Source of the DNA: Candidatus Viadribacter manganicus
GTDB taxonomy: Bacteria; Pseudomonadota; Alphaproteobacteria; Caulobacterales; Aquidulcibacteraceae
Reading direction: 5' to 3'
Assembly (NCBI RefSeq): GCF_001679665.1
Contig: NZ_CP013244.1
Span: 124,001 to 188,000 of the forward strand
DNA: 64,000 bases
In this document: positions 8,061-61,837 of the stretch, in pieces
Numbering within the stretch: the stretch's first letter is position 1
Layout of the letters: every line of letters starts with the position of its first letter
Notes under the pieces: model-generated
The model's database searches: none
Told to the model about the DNA's origin: nothing
The model's input: the letters and a program-made list of their open reading frames with translations, nothing else
Made by a program: the position numbers and the translations under genes

Positions 8061-9449
8061 ATGAGCGTCGTCACACGCTTTGCCCCCTCGCCCACAGGCT
8101 ACCTCCATATCGGAGGCGCGCGTACCGCCCTTTTCAATTGGCTGTTCGCGAAAAAGATGGGCGGCACCTTCCTTCTTAGAATTGAAGACACCGACCGGGC
8201 TCGCTCTACGCCAGAAGCGATCGACGCCATTCTTGAGGGAATGGAGTGGCTTGGCTTGAAGCACGATGGGCAGACGATCTATCAGTTCGCGCGCGCCGAA
8301 CGCCATCGCGAGGCCGCCAGCGCGATGATTGCGCGCGGCACGGCTTTTCGCTGCTACATGACGCCGCAAGAGCAAGAGGCAGCGCGCAGCCAAGCTCACG
8401 CTGAGGGTCGCGCAATCCGCTCACCGTATCGCGATGGAAAAGCGCCGCCGTCAGCGGAGGCGCCGTTCACAGTACGCCTGCGCGCGCCCGACGAGGGGGA
8501 GGTGGTCAACGCTGACCTGATCCAAGGCGACGTCCAGATCAAGGCGCGCGATATCGACGATCTTGTAATGCTCCGTGCGGACGGCAATCCGACGTACATG
8601 CTTTCGGTTGTTGTCGACGATCACGACATGGCGGTGACCCACGTCATTCGCGGTGACGATCACCTCACCAACGCTGCGCGGCAGATCGTCATCTACAGAG
8701 CCATGGATTGGACGCCGCCGCTGTTCGCGCACGTGCCGCTCATTCACGGCGAAGACGGTAAGAAACTTTCGAAGCGCCACGGCGCACAGGCGGTGCACGA
8801 ATGGCGCGACATGGGGTATCTGCCCGAAGCCATGAATGCCTACCTTATGCGGCTAGGCTGGAGTCCAGGTCACGATGAAATTCTGACCAAGGAAGATGCG
8901 ATTCCACAATTTGAGATCGGCCAAATCGGCAAAGCCCCGGCGCGGCTCGACTTCAAGAAGTTGGATTCAGTCAACGCGCACTTCCTTTCTTTGGCCGATG
9001 ACGCACGTGTGACACGCCTCGTCGAAGAGCATCTGAAGGCCGCGGATGATGCTCCATTAGGCGGCGACTCGGCGGCTGCTTTGACGCGCGCCATTCCGCT
9101 GCTGAAAAAGCGAGCAAAGACCATTCCCGAGCTTGCGGAACAGGCGCGGTTCGTTCTGGTCAAGCGACCGCTAACGCTTGACGACACAGCGAAAAAGTTG
9201 CTCAACGACGACTTCAAGCCACGCCTTTCGCGCCTGCGTGACGCGCTCGAAAAAGAGCCATCGTGGAATCATGTAGCACTTGGCAGCACACTTAAGGCTT
9301 TCGCTACCAGCGAGGGCGTTGGCTTAGGACAAATCGGCCCGGGACTGAGGGCGGCGCTCACGGGCGGCACGCCATCTCCAGACTTGGGCCAGACGCTGGA
9401 ATTGTTAGGCCGTGAGGAAGCGCTGGCGCGCATCACGGATCAAGTTTGA
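8061..9449 (+). CDS. gltX: Glutamyl-tRNA synthetase (class I)
   Basis: GltX charges tRNA-Glu; a tRNA-Glu gene lies at 62435-62509. From ATG 8061 the 462-residue protein begins MSVVTRFAPSPTGYLHIGGA with the class I HIGH-type motif, has the KLSKRHGA form of KMSKS at about residues 235-242, then the helical anticodon-binding region. An upstream extension to 8019 is open but lacks family character. No zinc-binding Cys cluster was obvious in the middle region. Many alphaproteobacteria carry two GltX-type enzymes with differing tRNA specificity, and this one cannot be assigned to a subtype by eye. Confidence 0.95.
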   Translation: MSVVTRFAPSPTGYLHIGGARTALFNWLFAKKMGGTFLLRIEDTDRARSTPEAIDAILEGMEWLGLKHDGQTIYQFARAERHREAASAMIARGTAFRCYMTPQEQEAARSQAHAEGRAIRSPYRDGKAPPSAEAPFTVRLRAPDEGEVVNADLIQGDVQIKARDIDDLVMLRADGNPTYMLSVVVDDHDMAVTHVIRGDDHLTNAARQIVIYRAMDWTPPLFAHVPLIHGEDGKKLSKRHGAQAVHEWRDMGYLPEAMNAYLMRLGWSPGHDEILTKEDAIPQFEIGQIGKAPARLDFKKLDSVNAHFLSLADDARVTRLVEEHLKAADDAPLGGDSAAALTRAIPLLKKRAKTIPELAEQARFVLVKRPLTLDDTAKKLLNDDFKPRLSRLRDALEKEPSWNHVALGSTLKAFATSEGVGLGQIGPGLRAALTGGTPSPDLGQTLELLGREEALARITDQV

Positions 9450-9461
9450 GGACGGACGTCG

Positions 9462-10766
9462 ATGCAGAGCAAAATTACCAAGAAGCCTTCGGCTACGATC
9501 ACCGTAAACAACAAGCAGCTTGAGCTGCCGGTGTACGGCGGGAGTGTCGGGCCCGACGTCGTCGATATTCGGAAACTTTACGCTCAGACGGGCGTGTTCA
9601 CTTTCGATCCGGGCTTCACCTCGACGGCCTCCTGCGAGAGCCAGATCACCTACATCGACGGCGATGAAGGCGTGCTCCTCTATCGCGGCTACCCGATCGA
9701 CCAATTGGCTGAGCACTCAAGTTTCCTCGAGGTTTGCTATCTCTTGGCGAATGGCGAACTGCCGAACACGGCCGAGTATCAGCGCTTTGCTAAGGATATC
9801 ACCTACCACACGATGCTGCACGCGCAGTTCGATCGCTTCTTTGAAGGCTTCCGCCGGGACGCGCACCCGATGGCGATCATGGTGGGCACTGTTGGCGCTC
9901 TGGCCGCATTCTATCACGACAGCACCGACATCAACGATCCGGTGCAACGTACGATCGCGAGCCACCGCCTGATCGCGAAGATGCCGACCATTGCGGCGCG
10001 CGCGTTCAAATATTCCATCGGCCAACCGTTCGTGAGCCCGCGCAACGAACTCGACTATGCGTCGAACTTCCTGCGCATGTGCTTCGCGGTCCCGGCGGAG
10101 GACTACAAGGTCAACCCAGTTTTGGCGCGCGCGATGGACGTGTTCTTCATTCTTCACGCCGACCACGAACAAAACGCCTCAACCTCGACAGTGCGTTTGG
10201 CGGGCTCCTCCGGCGCCAATCCGTTTGCTTGCATTTCATCGGGCATCGCGTGCCTCTGGGGACCCGCTCACGGCGGCGCCAACGAAGCTGCGCTCAACAT
10301 GCTCGAAGAAATCGGGCACGTTGATAACATCCCAGAATTTATACGACGCGTGAAAGATCCGAACGACGATGTCCGTTTGATGGGATTTGGCCACCGCGTT
10401 TACAAGAACTACGATCCGCGCGCGAAAGCGATGCAGAAGCTTTGCCATGCTGTGCTGAAAGAAACAGGCGGCCTTGATAATCCGACGCTCAAAGTTGCGA
10501 TGGAACTTGAGAAGATCGCGCTCAGCGATGAGTACTTCGTGAGCCGCAAGCTTTATCCAAACATCGATTTCTATTCAGGCATCACGTTGCGTGCGATGGG
10601 CTTCCCGACTTCCATGTTCACGGTGTTGTTCGCCGTCGCGCGTACTGTTGGGTGGATCGCGCAATGGACGGAAATGATGGAAGACGAGAGTCAGAAGATC
10701 GGACGCCCGCGGCAGGTCTACACAGGCGCACCGAAGCGTGACTACGTGGCTCTCGATCGCCGCTAA
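9462..10766 (+). CDS. gltA: Citrate synthase (type II)
   Basis: GltA condenses oxaloacetate and acetyl-CoA to citrate, the entry step of the TCA cycle. The 434-residue protein has the N-terminal small domain of the hexameric, NADH-sensitive type, the conserved [16 protein letters not shown], the active-site His in [26 protein letters not shown] (second active-site His), and [12 protein letters not shown] with the catalytic Asp. It follows gltX by 12 bases behind a GAGGACGGAC ribosome site. It converges on lpxB, with the two stop regions overlapping by four bases. Confidence 0.97.
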
Positions 10767-28448: not shown

Positions 28449-31400
28449 TCAGATGACGCGCTCAACCCCTCTGGCCGCCTTCAATGCTGACCGCGCGGCG
28501 GGACTTGCCGAGGCCAAGCGGCCGGTATTGAGTTCGATCTCGCGGCCATCATTGAGGCGCAACACGAGATGAAGCGGGCGCGCCTCCCCGGGCTGAGCTT
28601 TTGGCAGCGCTGACAGCGTCTGGAGCAACAAATCTAGGGGCGCCCCCTCGCGCAACACGATGCGAAGGTCATCTCCGATCCGAGCTTCTGCAGCTTCGAC
28701 TGGTTCAAAGGAATCTGCGGCGAGCTTCATGTCGCCGTCGCGCCACCTAACCCGGCCGCGGAAGCCGAACGCTTTACCAACCTCGATCACGTCGCGTGCA
28801 GCCTGCACGTTCTCGGGCATGATCATGCCTTCGAAGTCGCCCGTAGGATCGCTCATCGAGACGAACGCCAAGGTCCCGCCTGACATGGCGGGCCGATACT
28901 GAATGCGGCGCACCACACCGGCCATCATGTAGGCCCGCGGCTCGGTCTCACCCTCTTCGACAATATCGGCGTAGCTTGAATATCGATCACCAGCGTCGAC
29001 GAAAAAGTCCGACAACGGGTGACCAGAAAGATAGAAGCCTACACTCTCTCGCTCCGCATCCAGACGATCTTGCGCGGACCAGGCCGGCGCCTTTGGAAAG
29101 ACAGGACGCGCGCTCGGTTCTTCCGAACCGAACAAACTCGCCTGCGAACTGGCGCGTTCTTCAGCAACGCGTTGCGCATACGCTGCAACAATTTCACAAG
29201 CAGCAAGCGCCCTGGCGCGATCGGGCTCAAAACCGTCGAAAGCGCCGGACTTGGCTAGGTTTTCAAGCTGCCGGCGGTTGATGGCCTTGGCATCGATCCG
29301 TTCCGCCAATTCGTGCAGCGCCTTGAACTTCCCCTTCCGCTTCCGCTCCTCAACCACGCTCGCCATCGCGACAAGCCCGACGTTACGCACAGCACCAAGG
29401 GCGTAACGCACCGCCAAACCATCCTCGGTTTTCTCAACGTTAAAGTCGGCTTCGGAATTGTTGAGGTCGGGAGGCAGCATGGGTACGTGAACGCGCTTGG
29501 CGTCTTGCACGAAGCTCGCAAGCTTGTCCGAATTTGAAAGGTCAAGGCTCATAGAGGCCGCGATAAAATCGACAGGATAATGCGCCTTTAGGAATGCAGT
29601 CTGGTACGCAACCACGGCGTACGCAGCGGCGTGTGATTTATTGAATCCATAGCCGGCGAATTCTTCGACGAGATCGAAGATGTGTGAGGCCAGGTTCTCG
29701 CTGACACCCTTCTCCTTCGCGCCCTCGATGAAACGTGATTTTTGCTTCGCCATCTCCGCGGGTTGCTTTTTGCCCATCGCACGACGCAGCAAGTCGGCCT
29801 CGCCAAGACTGTAGCCGGACAAGACCTGAGCGATCTGCATCACCTGCTCTTGGTAGACGATGACGCCGTATGTTTCTTCGAGAATTGGCTTCAAAGTCTC
29901 GTGCAGATAATCAGGCTGCTCACGACCGTGCTTTACATTCGCGAACCGATCGATGTTCTTCATCGGCCCCGGGCGATAGAGCGAAATCAGCGCGATGACG
30001 TCTTCCAGCGTCGTAGGCTTCACTTTGCGCAGGGTGTCCCGCATCCCCTGACCTTCGAGTTGAAACACCCCGAAGGTCAGACCCGATTGCATGAGCCTGT
30101 AGGTCGCCTCGTCGCCGTAGTCTCCGGTGTTGAGATCGATCTTTTCACCGCGAGCCCGGATGAATTTCACGGCGCGGTCGATCACCGTGAGCGTCTTCAG
30201 CCCTAGAAAGTCGAACTTCACCAAGCCCGCTGCTTCGACCCACTTCATGTTGAATTGGGTGGCCGGCAAATGTGCCCGTGGATCGCGATAGAGTGGCACC
30301 AACTCAATGAGGGGACGATCGCCGATCACAACGCCGGCAGCGTGTGTCGATGCGTTTCTATAAAGCCCCTCTAGCTGCAACGCCGTGTCTATGAGCTCGC
30401 GGACCTCCGCCTCGTTTCGCTTCGCCTCTTGCAGCTTCGGCTCGATCTCCATCGCCTGAGCCAGCGTGACGGGGTTTGCGGGGTTCGCTGGCACAAGCTT
30501 TGCCAGCTTATCGACTTGGCCAAACGGCAACTGCATCACGCGTCCGACGTCGCGAAGCACGGCGCGCGCTTGCAGCGTGCCGAAGGTGATAATGTGCGCG
30601 ACGCGATCTTCCCCGTACTTGTTCTTCACGTATTCGATAACTTCGCCACGTCGTTCCTGGCAGAAGTCGATATCGAAGTCGGGCATCGACACGCGCTCTG
30701 GATTCAAGAAGCGCTCGAACAGTAGGCCCCAACGTAGCGGATCAAGATCTGTGATGGTCAGGGCCCAGGCTACCACCGAGCCTGCGCCTGAGCCCCGCCC
30801 AGGTCCCACCGGAATGTCGTTCGACTTCGCCCACTTGATAAAGTCCGAGACGATCAAGAAGTAGCCCGGGAACTGCATCTGCGTGATAACAGAAAGCTCG
30901 TACGCAAGTCGTTTCTCGTAATCCTCAAGCGGCGCTGCGAGTTTATCTCCGAGCGCCTTGACCCTCTCCTTTAGGCCAGCCTCGGCCTGCGCCTTCAACT
31001 CGGCAGCCTCGTCGCGGCCGCGCTTGGTGTCGAAGCGCGGCAAGATGGGTTTGCGCTTCTCGACTTTGTAAGCAGTCCGGCGTGCAATCTCGATGGTGCT
31101 CTCTAGCGCCTCCGGCAGATCGGAAAAGAGCGCGGCCATCTCATCGGCAGAACGAAAGTAATGCTGGTGCGTTACACGCGGGCGATCTTCGGCGCCGAGA
31201 TACGATGATGCCGCGATGCAGAGCAGCGCATCATGCGCCCCGTGATCGGCCTTCTTTTCGAAACGAATGTCGTTCGTCGCGACGATGGGCAGACCAAGGT
31301 CGTACGCCATCTCAAGCAGCGGACCTTCGCTCTCGACCTCGATGAGTTCACTATGACGCTGAAGTTCGACATAGAGGCGATTGGGGAAGGCGTGGCCGAG

Positions 31401-31862
31401 TTGCTTCAAGGTATCGACGGCAATATCTATCTTGCCCTCGGAGATTAACGGAGCAAGTGCGCTCTCGCCCCCGCCGGTTAGCGCAATCAGACCTTCTGAG
31501 TGTTGCAGAAGACGCGAGAACAGAACGTGAGGTTCATCGTGCGATTCCGCTTCTAGATAGGCAGCGCTCGAGAGCTGCATCAGATTTGTGTAACCTGCCT
31601 CACTTTGGGCGATGAGCGCGAACGCCCCTTTCAACCCATGATCACCGCGTACATCGAGAGTGAGACCAACAATCGGCTGAACGCCCAATTCTGACGCGGC
31701 TTCTGAGAACTCAAGCGCGCCGAACAGGTTGTTGGCGTCCGTGAGCCCAAGCGCAGGCATCTGGTGTTTGGCCGCGAGCTTCGCGAGCCCCTTAACTTGG
31801 ATCGCACTCTGCAGCAGCGAATAGGCCGAACGCGCTCGGAGATGAACAAACTGCTGGGGCAT
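28449..31862 (-). CDS. dnaE: DNA polymerase III alpha subunit (replicative)
   Basis: DnaE is the replicative polymerase subunit. The 1137-residue protein has an N-terminal PHP domain ([13 protein letters not shown]), the C-family palm with [16 protein letters not shown] and [19 protein letters not shown] (catalytic Asp pair), [20 protein letters not shown], a helix-hairpin-helix region ([17 protein letters not shown]), and an OB fold near residue 985. The PHP domain lacks the usual second His (RSAYS) and the LTDHGN His (here LTDANN), which fits loss of PHP proofreading in species that use DnaQ. It lies downstream of lolD after about 50 bases. Confidence 0.97.
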
Positions 31863-31913: not shown

Positions 31914-32609
31914 TTAGCTGCGTTGAACGAGCTTGCCGTGGTCCAGCGCCATAACCCGGTCCATGTACTTCGCCAATTCCAGGTTGTGGGTTGCAATCAG
32001 GGCAGCCGCGCCCTCGTTGCGAACCAGATCGGACAACGCCGCAAACACCACTTTCGAGGTGTCCGGATCGAGGTTTCCAGTCGGTTCGTCGGCCAAAATG
32101 AGGATCGGATTGTTGATCATCGCGCGAGCAATAGCGACGCGCTGTTGCTCTCCACCTGACAGTTGCGCCGGTTGGTGATGGATACGGTCTGACAATCCCA
32201 TGATCCCCAGAAGGCGTTCGCCCTCGTCCATCGCTTCTTTGCGCTTGCGCCCTGCGATCAGCGCCGGGAGCGCTACATTGTGGATCGCATCGAACTCCGG
32301 AAGGAGATGGTGGAACTGATAGACGAAGCCAATCCGGTTGCGACGAATATTCGTTCGCTCTCCGTCACTCAGCTCCCAACCTGACTGACCATCGATCCAA
32401 ACGTCCCCCGATGATGGCCGCTCAAGCATCCCCGCAGCGTGGAGTAGCGATGACTTGCCCGAGCCCGAGGGACCGATGAGGCCAACAATCTCGCCGGCGC
32501 CAATGTGCAGTTGAACGCCATCAAGCACCGTGAGTGCGCTGCTGCCGGATTGATAGACTCTGCCAACATTTTCCAAGCGCAGGATAGGTCCGTGCGAGGC
32601 ATTACTCAT
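31914..32609 (-). CDS. lolD: Lipoprotein-releasing ABC transporter ATP-binding protein
   Basis: LolD powers the LolCDE complex that extracts lipoproteins from the inner membrane for transfer to LolA. The 231-residue ATPase has Walker A GPSGSGKSS, the Q-loop YQFHHLLPEF, the signature LSGGEQQRVAIARA and Walker B LILADEPTGNLD, followed by the switch His in IATHN. The MacB/LolD-type sequence and the adjacent FtsX-type permease give the assignment. It overlaps the permease gene by eight bases. Confidence 0.95.
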   Translation of the reverse strand: MSNASHGPILRLENVGRVYQSGSSALTVLDGVQLHIGAGEIVGLIGPSGSGKSSLLHAAGMLERPSSGDVWIDGQSGWELSDGERTNIRRNRIGFVYQFHHLLPEFDAIHNVALPALIAGRKRKEAMDEGERLLGIMGLSDRIHHQPAQLSGGEQQRVAIARAMINNPILILADEPTGNLDPDTSKVVFAALSDLVRNEGAAALIATHNLELAKYMDRVMALDHGKLVQRS

Positions 32610-33879
32610 AGCGCAAAGCCTCCACCGGATCGAAGCGAGACGCCCACCACGAGGTCACCAACGTTGCGGCAAAAGTCACGAGCACTGTGAACAGTGAAAT
32701 GCCGATGACTTCGCTCCACTCGACGCGAGCAGGGAGCGTCTCAAGCGAATAGACCGTTCCAGGAAAAACATCGAATCCAGTGGTTTGCTGGATGAAGTTC
32801 TGGATGGCCTCGATGTTGAGGCAGAAGCCGATGCCTAGCAACAATCCCAGGCTCAATCCGATCAGACCCAAGCTCGCACTGGCCATGAAGAACACACGCA
32901 TAATGGCGCCTTTGGTCGCGCCCATCGTGCGCAAGATAGCGATGTCCCGGCTCTTGTTCTTAACAAGCATGATCAGACCCGTGACAATGTTGAGGGCAGC
33001 GATTGTGACCAAGATCATGAGGATCAACCGCATGACGTTCCGCTCGACCACGAGCGCATCGGATAGCCCCTGGCTCTTGGCCCGCCAGTCATAGATCGTG
33101 ACCTCAGGGCCTAAGCGGTTTCGCAATTCCATCATCGTGGCGACTGTTCGGTCGGGGTTTCGGATCCGAATCTCGAGCTCATCGGCCCCATCGCCGCGGC
33201 TGAACAAGATCTGCGCTTGCTCAAGCGGCATGTAGATCAGTGCAGAGTCGAACTCGGCCATGCCGACGCTAAACACACCACCAATCAGGAATGACTTACG
33301 CCGGGGTGTTAGTCCGAACGGAGTTGCCGCGCCCTGCGGCGAGAGAATTGAGATCGCCATATTCTCAGCGGCGCCCAGCGATGCAGCCAAACGATCGCCA
33401 ACCAAGATGCTCGGCGATTCGATGCCTTCGAAGTTTTGGAAGCTCCCCCCACTTCGAATACTGTTCGCGACGATCGGCAGGGCCTCAAGATCGCCACGTC
33501 GCATTCCGCGCACGACGACACCTGCCGCCAGTCCGTCTGGAGACGTCGCAAGCGCTTGGGCATTGATGGTCGGCGCGACATGCAACACATCCGGCGCTTC
33601 TCGGGCGAGTGTAGCAAGTCGCTCAATTTCGCTGCCTGGCAGATTGCGCACATCGACGTAGACGTGACCGTTCACGCCCAAAATGCGCGAAAGCAACGTC
33701 TCCCGGAAGCCGTTCATCACCGACATTGTGATGATGAGCGCCGTCACCGCGAGCGTAATCGCGATCACCGATATCACCGAAATCAGTGCAACACCGCCAT
33801 GGGCCCGCTTCGCGCGCAGGTAACGGCCGGCGAGCATCCGCTCAAACAGGCCAAACGGGGCGCTTCGTCCGTTGCTCAT
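32602..33879 (-). CDS. Lipoprotein-releasing ABC transporter permease (LolC/LolE type)
   Basis: The 425-residue protein has one N-terminal membrane segment (VALISVISVIAITLAVTALI), a large periplasmic MacB-like domain (about 60-270) and three C-terminal segments of the FtsX fold (about 285-415). The N-terminal FERMLAGRYLRAKRAHGGVA is typical of LolC/LolE. Only one permease gene is present with lolD, as in many alphaproteobacteria where a single LolF-like permease may form a homodimer. The ATG at 33879 shares one base with the proS stop (TGATG). Confidence 0.92.
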   Translation of the reverse strand: MSNGRSAPFGLFERMLAGRYLRAKRAHGGVALISVISVIAITLAVTALIITMSVMNGFRETLLSRILGVNGHVYVDVRNLPGSEIERLATLAREAPDVLHVAPTINAQALATSPDGLAAGVVVRGMRRGDLEALPIVANSIRSGGSFQNFEGIESPSILVGDRLAASLGAAENMAISILSPQGAATPFGLTPRRKSFLIGGVFSVGMAEFDSALIYMPLEQAQILFSRGDGADELEIRIRNPDRTVATMMELRNRLGPEVTIYDWRAKSQGLSDALVVERNVMRLILMILVTIAALNIVTGLIMLVKNKSRDIAILRTMGATKGAIMRVFFMASASLGLIGLSLGLLLGIGFCLNIEAIQNFIQQTTGFDVFPGTVYSLETLPARVEWSEVIGISLFTVLVTFAATLVTSWWASRFDPVEALRYE

Positions 33880-35411
33880 CAATAGGCCCGTGCGATCAGG
33901 ATTTCTTCTACGGCTGGCTGCCCGGTAAAGATGCACGGGCCGAACGATTTGGGCTGCGCCATCGGCGCATTACGGATGGTTAGCTTCAAGGCTTTCAGGC
34001 GTGTCCCCACTTCTTCCAACGCAGCGCCGGTGGGCCGGGACCATTGCACGCGCGCCCAGCCTTTGAACTCGCCATCTTCGTCTTCGGTTCCGTAGTACTT
34101 TTCTATGTCGGCGAAGGACGTCAAATCGCCACGGATGTTGGCGTCGAGGCGGGCTTTGGCTTCGTCGAACAGTTCTTTTTGCATGGCTTCCAAGAGCCCT
34201 GGCGCTTGCGCAACGAAATCGCTGCGCGACAGCGTGTGCGATTTGATCTTGTCGCCTTCGCGCAGCATGTTGCGCTTGATGAAGGTGACGTTGCCGCCGG
34301 CCGCATCGCGCGGGCCGATTTCGCAAATCAGCGGCGCGCCACGACGCACCCAGTCCCAGCGTTTGTCGGCGGGTCTGGCGTCCTTTTCGTCAACGTAGGC
34401 GCGCATCGGCGAGCCAAGCGCCGAGCCCTTGTTCAGTTCGGCGACCAGCGCTTTGCAATACTGTTTGAGTTCATCGTCCTCAGGCTTGTTGCGCAGCATC
34501 GGCACAACCACGATCTGACGCGGCGCCATGGCTGGCGGCGTACGCATGCCGTCGTCATCGCCGTGCGTCATGATCATGCCGCCGATGAGACGCGTCGAGG
34601 TGCCCCAACTCGTTGTGTGCGCGAGTGACATGCCGCCGTCTTTATCTTGGTAGCGAATGTTCTGCGCTTCAGCGAAGTGCGTGCCGAGATAGTGCGAGGT
34701 GCCGGCCTGCAGCGCCTTTCCATCTTGCATCATCGCTTCGATCGAGTACGTGCGGTCCGCGCCGGGGAAGCGTTCGTTCTCCGGCTTCTCGCCGCAAACA
34801 ACCGGGATCGCCATCACCTCTTCGACGACGCTGCGATACATCTCAAGCGCGAGCATGGTCTCTTCCATGGCGTCGGCTTCGTCGACGTGCGCGGTGTGGC
34901 CTTCCTGCCAGAGGAATTCAGCCGTGCGCAGGAACAGACGCGTGCGCATCTCCCAACGCATCACGTTGGCCCACTGGTTCATCTTCAGCGGCAGATCGCG
35001 ATACGACTTGATCCACTTGCTGAACGCATCGCCGATGATCGTCTCCGACGTTGGGCGAATAATGAGCGGCTCGGTGAGCTCAGCTTCAGGATCGGGTTTC
35101 AAAGTGCCGTCGATCGCCTTCAGGCGATGGTGCGTGACCACAGCCATTTCCTTGGCGAAGCCTTCGACGTGCTCAGCCTCCTTGGCGAAGAACGAGAGCG
35201 GGATCAGCAGCGGGAAATAATAGTTCTCGTGACCAGTCTCGCGGATGCGACGGTCCATCTCCTGTTGGAAACGCTCCCAGATCCCCATGCCCCACGGCTT
35301 GATGATCATGCACCCGCGCGTCGGCGACGACTCCGCGAAATCGGCGTCGCGGACGACCGTTTGGTACCATTCGGGAAAATCTTCGGCGCGCGTGACCTTA
35401 AGCGCATACAT
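33879..35411 (-). CDS. proS: Prolyl-tRNA synthetase, archaeal/eukaryotic-like type
   Basis: ProS charges tRNA-Pro. The 510-residue protein has class II motifs (VRPTSETIIGDAFSKWI; VMRWEMRTRLFLRTAEFLWQ with motif 2 Arg) and an anticodon-binding domain. The start DFPEWYQTVVRDADFAE, KPWGMGIWERFQQ, FPLLIPLSFFAKEAEHVEGF and the terminal Tyr (ARAY) match the archaeal/eukaryotic-type enzyme, as in Thermus, not the short alphaproteobacterial form that begins MRLSRYFLP. There is no bacterial editing insertion. The C-terminal zinc site looks degraded: RVQWSRPTG and PCIFTGQPA each lack an expected Cys. Start ATG 35411 has an AAAGGAA ribosome site. It occupies the normal proS locus between DUF1467 and lolC. 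Confidence 0.93.
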   Translation of the reverse strand: MYALKVTRAEDFPEWYQTVVRDADFAESSPTRGCMIIKPWGMGIWERFQQEMDRRIRETGHENYYFPLLIPLSFFAKEAEHVEGFAKEMAVVTHHRLKAIDGTLKPDPEAELTEPLIIRPTSETIIGDAFSKWIKSYRDLPLKMNQWANVMRWEMRTRLFLRTAEFLWQEGHTAHVDEADAMEETMLALEMYRSVVEEVMAIPVVCGEKPENERFPGADRTYSIEAMMQDGKALQAGTSHYLGTHFAEAQNIRYQDKDGGMSLAHTTSWGTSTRLIGGMIMTHGDDDGMRTPPAMAPRQIVVVPMLRNKPEDDELKQYCKALVAELNKGSALGSPMRAYVDEKDARPADKRWDWVRRGAPLICEIGPRDAAGGNVTFIKRNMLREGDKIKSHTLSRSDFVAQAPGLLEAMQKELFDEAKARLDANIRGDLTSFADIEKYYGTEDEDGEFKGWARVQWSRPTGAALEEVGTRLKALKLTIRNAPMAQPKSFGPCIFTGQPAVEEILIARAY

Positions 35412-35470
35412 CTGGGGAGGTTCCTTTCGGGCGTCTGGATAGACTGCGCCGAGGCTCCCCGCAACGCGGC

Positions 35471-35719
35471 CTAATGAGCGCGCATATTCCAAAGGTCGAC
35501 GGAAACGGCCCAGAAAACGCCCAGCCAGACCACCGCGGCGATGCCTGCCGCGTAAATTGCCTTCTTCCGGACGTTGTGAACCTTCGGCGCTCCAGGTTCC
35601 GCGCCAGGGACGGTTTCCTCGTCGGCCTCATGGTGGCTCTGAGCTCCCATAGGCAACATCACAAAGAATGCGAGCCACCAACAGATGACGTAGATGGCAA
35701 CGCCAAGAAGCGGGCTCAT
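35471..35719 (-). CDS. DUF1467 family small membrane protein
   Basis: The 82-residue protein has two membrane helices (GVAIYVICWWLAFFVMLPMG and the segment starting AIYAAGIAAVVWLG) joined by an acidic loop with GAQSHHEADEE. This plan, and the position between mce and proS, match DUF1467, a small conserved alphaproteobacterial family of unknown role. Its start overlaps the mce stop by four bases. Confidence 0.85.
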   Translation of the reverse strand: MSPLLGVAIYVICWWLAFFVMLPMGAQSHHEADEETVPGAEPGAPKVHNVRKKAIYAAGIAAVVWLGVFWAVSVDLWNMRAH

Positions 35720-36141
35720 CCGTGTGCGTCCTTGGGAGTTTCCATCAGTTCAATAAGCACGCCGTCAGAATTTTTCGGATCGATGAAGATAATGGGCGTG
35801 CCGTGGGCGCCTATGCGCGGCTCGTTGAGCACGCGCGCACCGCGAACGACCATCTCATCCCGTGCGACGTAGATATCCTGCACCTCGAAACAGATGTGGT
35901 GCTGGCCGCCACGGGGGTTCTTTTCGATGAACTTCGCAATAGGGCTGTTCTCGCCGAGCGGTTCAATCAACTCGATCTGGCTATTGGCAATATTGACGAA
36001 CGCAAATTTCACACCTTGCGCCGGCAGTTCACGGGTCTCGGTAATTGCGCTTTCCGGCACGCCATAGAGGTCCCGATAGGTCTTCTTCGCCGCCTCTATA
36101 GAAGGCACCGCGACGCCGACGTGATTCAACCTGCCGATCAT
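35716..36141 (-). CDS. mce: Methylmalonyl-CoA epimerase
   Basis: The enzyme interconverts (R)- and (S)-methylmalonyl-CoA in propionate breakdown. The 141-residue vicinal-oxygen-chelate protein starts IGRLNHVGVAVPSIEAAKK, with metal ligands in LNHVGVAV, QHHICFEV and GVLIELME, and the family GAQ-type segment replaced by PAQGVKFAFV. Length is normal. It lies 30 bases after rnj and overlaps the DUF1467 gene. The mutase genes are elsewhere. Confidence 0.92.
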   Translation of the reverse strand: MIGRLNHVGVAVPSIEAAKKTYRDLYGVPESAITETRELPAQGVKFAFVNIANSQIELIEPLGENSPIAKFIEKNPRGGQHHICFEVQDIYVARDEMVVRGARVLNEPRIGAHGTPIIFIDPKNSDGVLIELMETPKDAHG

Positions 36142-61760: not shown

Positions 61761-61837
61761 TGGTCGGGGCGGCGGGATTCGAACTCGCGACCCTTAGCTC
61801 CCAAAGCTAATGCTCTACCAGGCTGAGCTACACCCCG
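61761..61837 (-). tRNA. tRNA-Pro (anticodon TGG)
   Basis: The minus strand gives a 77-base cloverleaf: acceptor CGGGGTG / CGCCCCG, D arm AGCTCAGCCTGGTAGAGC, anticodon stem TTAGC-TTTGGGA-GCTAA with TGG, T loop TTCGAAT and encoded CCA. It is relevant to the unusual ProS in this window as one of its substrates. Confidence 0.95.

Follow-up and report, generated by a model that had tools for sequence, protein, structure and literature searches.

According to part of one published account (PMC12152171), an estimated ∼22% of bacteria have an E-type prolyl-tRNA synthetase (ProRS), and bacterial enzymes of this type are reported to charge P-type tRNA-Pro, statements for which it cites Vargas-Rodriguez 2013 and Ivanesthi 2024. 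The same part of that account describes G72 and A73 as being recognized by P-type ProRS and human ProRS as not reliant on C72/C73, gives the motif 2 loop as RPR in bacterial P-type and KHPQ in eukaryotic E-type enzymes, and lists a C-terminal zinc site as a feature of E-type ProRS. For other synthetases, a portion of PMC3191353 describes homeoalleles of TyrRS, ThrRS, and SerRS, that is, two ancient divergent forms, usually one per genome, which are swapped between relatives. The TyrRS forms are described there as being exchanged within the same syntenic context, and two routes are proposed for this exchange: recombination in the flanks and coexistence followed by loss.

We analyzed a 64,000-nucleotide stretch of the Candidatus Viadribacter manganicus genome (the window), which contains the following features.

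33879–35411, minus strand: proS, E-type prolyl-tRNA synthetase of 510 aa, with profile, domain, and PDB matches
32602–33879, minus strand: lolC, the ATG of which overlaps the TGA of proS by one base (TGATG)
31914–32609, minus strand: lolD, native left flank
28449–31862, minus strand: dnaE, native left flank
35471–35719, minus strand: gene for a DUF1467 protein of 82 aa, native right flank
35716–36141, minus strand: mce, methylmalonyl-CoA epimerase-like, native right flank
61761–61837, minus strand: tRNA-Pro(TGG), the presumed substrate of ProS, with C1, G72, and A73 retained

The 510 codons of proS and its TGA stop exactly fill positions 33879–35411, and the translation contains DFPEWYQ, KEAEHVEGF, and the terminal Tyr from which an archaeal/eukaryotic-type ProRS of 510 residues had originally been predicted. 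The type was confirmed by NCBIfam profile searches: TIGR00408 (proS_fam_I) matched residues 7–510 with 427.5 bits, against no more than 83.8 bits for the P-type models (83.8 for NF008979, the short alphaproteobacterial form, 72.5 for TIGR00409, and 69 for NF006625), and ProS is thus better matched by the full-length TIGR00408 than by any P-type profile tested. Membership of the short P-type was taken as a match of >550 bits to NF008979, and the window ProS, at 83.8 bits, lies outside it. The TIGR00408 score is slightly below the curated cut-off of 437 bits, which is a naming threshold used by NCBI for annotation and not a biological trait, and calls for caution when enzymes of this kind are annotated; the ProS of a second member of the genus (G142) reached 440.7 bits and is above the cut-off, as are 46 of 385 genomes of the class. 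Pfam matches placed the class II core at residues 111–278, continuous before the anticodon-binding domain (residues 299–400), and a sub-threshold match placed the C-terminal domain at residues 451–510. The C-terminal extension ends in Tyr, as in all 134 alphaproteobacterial E-type proteins, and the closest relative in the PDB was Thermus thermophilus ProRS (1h4q; E = 1.5e-118).

The window genome is a single contig of 3.73 Mb (99.99% complete), in which profile searches detected one proS. Three further TIGR00408 matches, at two other loci, scored ≤40 bits and are probably other class II synthetases; the short P-type model gave no match at E ≤ 1e-30, and the whole-genome search for a second proS, proposed together with the original prediction, found by profile neither a second copy nor a remnant of an older one. 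The spacing between proS and the DUF1467 gene is 59 bp (35412–35470), which leaves no room there for more than a small remnant of an earlier gene. On the other side, the TGATG overlap suggests that proS and lolC are probably translationally coupled. The GC3 of proS is 0.765 compared with 0.66–0.71 in nine flanking genes, a weak compositional trace.

We next consider how common each type is. The E-type was found in 18 of 150 genomes of the order (E ≤ 1e-60) and the short form in 130 of 150 (E ≤ 1e-100); none had both, and two (G108 and G137) had neither. As stated in the original prediction, the short form of about 440 aa is the norm, at least in this order, and most of the extracted proteins begin with MRLSRYF or similar. 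Across the class, the E-type occurs in 52 of 385 genomes, so the short form is not to be presumed in Alphaproteobacteria; in a separate scan at E ≤ 1e-120, 284 of the 385 genomes had the short form. Of the 60 family genomes, the E-type was found in 34 and the short form in 22; no genome combined the two, and in 4 neither was found. Three of these four (G546, G549, and G534) are 63–79% complete; the fourth, G137, is a draft of 100 contigs, and lolC was not found in it either. In the window genus, the E-type is present in 28 of 30 genomes and the short form in 0 of 30, the two members without the E-type (G546 and G549) being 65% and 79% complete. In G108 (locus L160, same order), we found a strongly divergent P-type ProRS of 414 aa, with 245 bits to the short form. 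It is neither the usual short form nor the E-type, and the order thus has three kinds of proS. Of the 51 E-type genomes of the class other than the window's own, searched at E ≤ 1e-40, one, G415 (L117 and L142), which lies outside the order, also has a P-type ProRS, a long one. Among the top 80 of 585 confirmed stretches in public genomes, a list with a bias to the closest, the named relatives include Sphingomonas, Novosphingobium, Erythrobacter, Methylosinus, Rhodoblastus, and Phenylobacterium.

The order of the window's neighbor genes was then tested in relatives by tblastn with the window proteins, using fetched flanks of up to 5 kb per side, some shorter. From their open reading frames, we take these neighbors to be dnaE, lolD, lolC, the DUF1467 gene, mce, RNase J, coaX, birA, and nuoN. 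In the 12 loci of the window genus that were mapped on both sides (L006, L007, L164, L183, L184, L314–L317, L320, L322, and L323), lolC is followed, on the same strand, by the E-type gene and then by DUF1467 and mce. The same arrangement was seen in genera g309 and g5; in g308, the E-type gene adjoins lolC at a contig end. In the comparison with sister genera suggested at the outset, the short P-type gene holds this position in five genera of the family (g2, g3, g6, g305, and g310). The DUF1467 match is missing in some g3 loci, one of which has a 2.4-kb gap after lolC, and in 2 of 3 g6 genomes the flank past proS is rearranged, with dnaE there. In g4, g306, g311, and one g2 genome, the short form adjoins lolC and the other side is without a match. 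In all three genomes of g7 (L306, L307, and L309), the slot is empty, the lolC and DUF1467 matches lying 55–58 bp apart, and the E-type proS is on another contig, away from the slot.

Beyond the family, the slot holds the short form in L153–L157, L159, and L162 (families f2, f3, and f4, which belong to this order too); in L158 the short form adjoins lolC, and in L161 and L163 (f5) it is without a slot neighbor. Loci with the E-type gene in the slot and on the same strand are L022, L175, and L179; in L181, this gene adjoins lolC. At ten further loci (L010, L014, L017, L021, L023, L024, L025, L075, L172, and L176), it is inverted in the lolC-side slot, an orientation that could not have arisen if the gene of a same-strand donor had simply been brought in by recombination of the flanks. 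For 58 mostly sphingomonad E-type loci, no slot neighbor was found within the fetched flanks.

A quick tree of 97 E-type rows (17 of 149 proteins merged as identical; 12 of the 58 mostly sphingomonad loci kept) placed all 88 alphaproteobacterial rows in one group (99 SH-aLRT), apart from 9 others. The window genus (14 rows, 99) fell within a 56-row group (100) together with Sphingomonadales and with scattered members of Rhizobiales and Caulobacterales. The outgroup of this tree was made up of seven plasmid-collection records and parts of two PDB chains, with no archaeal rows; its branches are long, and the program issued a warning on two joined long ones. A direct donor among archaea, eukaryotes, or Thermus, which we had considered as a candidate, is unsupported, given the clustering of the 88 rows against this outgroup. 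The archaeal or Thermus kinship implied by the original prediction was not upheld: the nearest relatives are alphaproteobacterial, and the E-type, with 52 of 385 genomes, is not rare in the class. In the trees, the nearest kin of the window ProS are enzymes of the same family, followed by those of scattered Rhizobiales, Caulobacterales, and Sphingomonadales.

In a second, more careful E-type tree, of 44 chosen rows, the window genus (g1), g309, g5, and g308 formed a clade (97/98), with g5 sister to g308 (99/91) and two of the three g7 loci in a different subclade. Forcing the two g7 rows into the clade of g1 cost 14.3 log units (p-AU 0.053), which is not a formal rejection. As the reference for exchange, we used nine flanking genes, not ribosomal proteins, in a tree of 37 chosen rows built from best tblastn segments, with at most about half of the columns filled in six of the rows. 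Here, the short-form genus g6 grouped with g1, g309, and g308 (100/98), and the short-form genus g305 grouped with g5 and g7 (99/98). A single clade of the E-type genera was rejected on this tree (p-AU 6.9e-53). Keeping g1, g309, and g308 apart from g6 was not rejected (p-AU 0.076), and separate trees of the left and right flanks (19 and 18 rows) differ in the branching of g6, g309, and g1. The tree requires at least three changes of proS type, a well supported minimum for its rows that is valid for the family only, because all seven outgroup rows were drawn from short-form genomes; three E-type genomes of f3/f4 with proS outside the slot (G039, G096, and G131) were left out.

The directions of these changes are not established by the counts or the trees. 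The short forms of the family made one clade in the best tree, for which we left out the divergent ProRS of G108 and four loci whose genome or genus already had a row; because the support for this clade is weak (59/86), g6 or g305 may have regained the short form. Likewise, because g308 was placed with g5 in the E-type tree and with the window genus in the flank tree (its sequences are fragmentary in both), the history of the E-type is not simply vertical. From the occurrence of the E-type and the absence of the short form in the window genus, the switch to the E-type predates this genus. A lineage that had always carried this type, named at the outset as the outcome that would speak against a replacement, is what we see in the genus, as far as it was covered, and not what we see in the family.

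Overall, we consider it probable that a lone E-type ProRS displaced the native short P-type enzyme in the lolC-[proS]-DUF1467-mce slot, in the ancestor of the genus and from an alphaproteobacterial donor, with repeated switching in the family. The in-place replacement proposed originally is supported, in that the same slot holds the short form in relatives and no second proS was found in the genome; a recent or exotic event is unsupported. On this reading, the E-type gene would have come from another alphaproteobacterium into the slot of the native short form, and the two types would act like alleles, interchangeable at a single slot and switched several times within the family. Recombination in the flanks could have brought about the swap, or the new gene could have been inserted and have coexisted briefly with the old one before the latter was lost, and both flank recombination and coexistence-then-loss may operate on proS. 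The incoming E-type enzyme would then have charged an unchanged bacterial tRNA-Pro.

With respect to this last step, we read 50 tRNA-Pro genes from 79 listed places, including all three of the window genome. The genes start with C1 and end with G72-A73-CCA, and C1, G72, and A73 were present in 50/50 (35 for E-type and 15 for short-type genomes). A co-change of tRNA-Pro with enzyme type at positions 1, 72, and 73 was rejected for these 50 genes, which do not comprise every isoacceptor of every genome. A GTTAG form of the D-loop is common to two short-type genomes (G082 and G028) and the window genus, and D-loop differences in the rows compared track lineage, not enzyme type. In the motif 2 loop, the window ProS has RTR; of the 134 alphaproteobacterial E-type proteins, 130 have RTR or RPR at this place, and the remaining four gave no match to the search pattern. 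Most likely, the window ProS recognizes a P-type tRNA-Pro (C1:G72, A73) via its Arg-Thr-Arg motif 2 loop. These observations fit an E-type enzyme that had adapted to bacterial tRNA before its move, so that a change in the tRNA would have been unnecessary. For a loss of trans-editing after the swap, also considered as a candidate, no clear pattern emerged: 16 of 21 genomes with the E-type and 8 of 9 with the short form have the PF04073 editing domain (E ≤ 1e-5). The 126-aa PF04073 segment of the window genome had no NCBIfam match. In the six genomes in which PF04073 was not found at this threshold (G161, G293 (Sphingomonadales by tree), G226, G248, G152, and G028), editing of Ala/Cys-tRNA-Pro may be absent or otherwise performed.

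The leading alternative, which we regard as possible but rather doubtful, is that the common ancestor of g1, g309, g6, g308, g5, g305, and g7 had both types and that its descendants each kept one. This would account for the single clade formed by the E-types of g1, g309, g5, and g308 and for the short forms of g6 and g305, which look native to the family in the weak short-form clade; the empty slot of g7 reveals that loss from the slot does occur, and G415 has an E-type and a long P-type together, albeit outside the order. Against it, none of the 60 family genomes has both types, and the E-type of g7 sits elsewhere in the genome and groups with other lineages, with the p-AU of 0.053 noted above for two of its rows. 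Far less probable is an E-type that was ancestral in the slot, with the short form as the invader in other lineages: the deeper-branching E-type lineages L175, L179, and L181 do have the gene in or beside the slot on the same strand, but the short form outnumbers the E-type by 130 to 18 among the 150 genomes of the order, and the outer family branches (g2, g3, g306, g310, g311, and g4) have the short form. An assembly or binning artefact, although many of the relatives are metagenome bins, can be practically dismissed for a nearly complete one-contig genome in which proS and lolC are joined by the TGATG overlap and with which 28 of 30 genus members agree.

Returning to the displacement of the short form by an E-type enzyme, we tentatively propose, as an idea that may well prove too broad, that the alphaproteobacterial lolC-DUF1467/mce interval is a recurrent exchange slot for proS, in which two architectures alternate, the E-type gene is found in either orientation or gone, and the tRNA identity bases stay fixed. 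If this is true, with in-slot switches in both directions in one family, ProRS would offer a natural experiment on how one synthetase can be swapped for another with different recognition rules while its tRNA stays the same. An essential tRNA-charging enzyme would have been replaced by one of different architecture, and positions 1, 72, and 73 of tRNA-Pro are unchanged in the genes read. The family has living representatives with the short form in the slot, with the E-type in the slot, and with an empty slot and the E-type elsewhere, and because all three states survive, the order of events and any selective reason are testable in close relatives.

E-type proS genes were also observed on plasmids. 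Plasmid p_3 of Rhizobium leguminosarum (CP050563.1; L185, positions 8992–10542) carries one that is 65.7% identical to that of the window, among hypothetical genes, IS66 parts, and a Ku gene; the plasmid is 665 kb long and typed as mobilizable. This indicates that an E-type proS is able to sit on a mobilizable element, and a plasmid of this kind may be a vehicle by which the gene is transferred. Among plasmids of Clostridioides difficile, twelve records (H8–H18 and H22; 97–150 kb) have an E-type proS with 40–41% identity. On a plasmid of Streptomyces sp. SAT1 (L270), an E-type proS adjoins an MFS transporter gene and might serve in self-resistance.

The original prediction also held that the C-terminal zinc site appears degraded, with Ser and Thr where Cys is expected. 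At the Cys columns of Acetoanaerobium ProRS, the window residues are S, V, N, C, and T; four of these five columns are presumed to bind zinc. Ser and Thr were indeed found, but the loss spans the alphaproteobacterial E-type set (n = 134) and is not a trait of the window ProS alone: Cys is kept in 13/134 proteins at the first reference column, 0/134 at the second, 131/134 at the third, and 0/134 at the last, and in 30/134 at a fifth reference Cys column, which we presume to be a non-ligand. Outside the class, an intact site is likewise missing from two rows of Bacteroidota and two of Streptomycetaceae, and is present in two Clostridia rows. The loss is therefore not specific to the window genus or the class, and with relatives outside the class also lacking an intact site, we do not treat it as defining the E-type.

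Compared with the closest solved relative, T. thermophilus ProRS (1h4q), the window ProS is likewise an E-type enzyme without an INS domain but lacks the zinc-site cysteines and belongs to an alphaproteobacterial subgroup. The proS genes of Sphingomonadales, Methylosinus, and Rhodoblastus belong to the same E-type subgroup (59–69% identity) and share the degenerate zinc site in the rows shown; unlike that of the window, they are without lolC, DUF1467, or mce in the fetched flanks. A search of title and abstract starts in open-licence literature turned up nothing on a switch between ProRS types in Alphaproteobacteria. E-type ProRS in bacteria and same-place exchange of a synthetase (TyrRS) are already known, and the present case, of moderate-to-low surprise, is a well resolved ProRS example of an ordinary kind of gene exchange that took place more than once in the family. 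As with the homeoalleles, ProRS in this family has two divergent forms, one per genome and patchy in distribution (34, 22, 0, and 4 of 60 genomes for E-type, short, both, and neither), and its exchange is visible as a conflict with the flank reference tree. It differs from the TyrRS, ThrRS, and SerRS cases in that another synthetase is concerned, the two types of which, as described in part of PMC12152171, differ in domain architecture and tRNA recognition.
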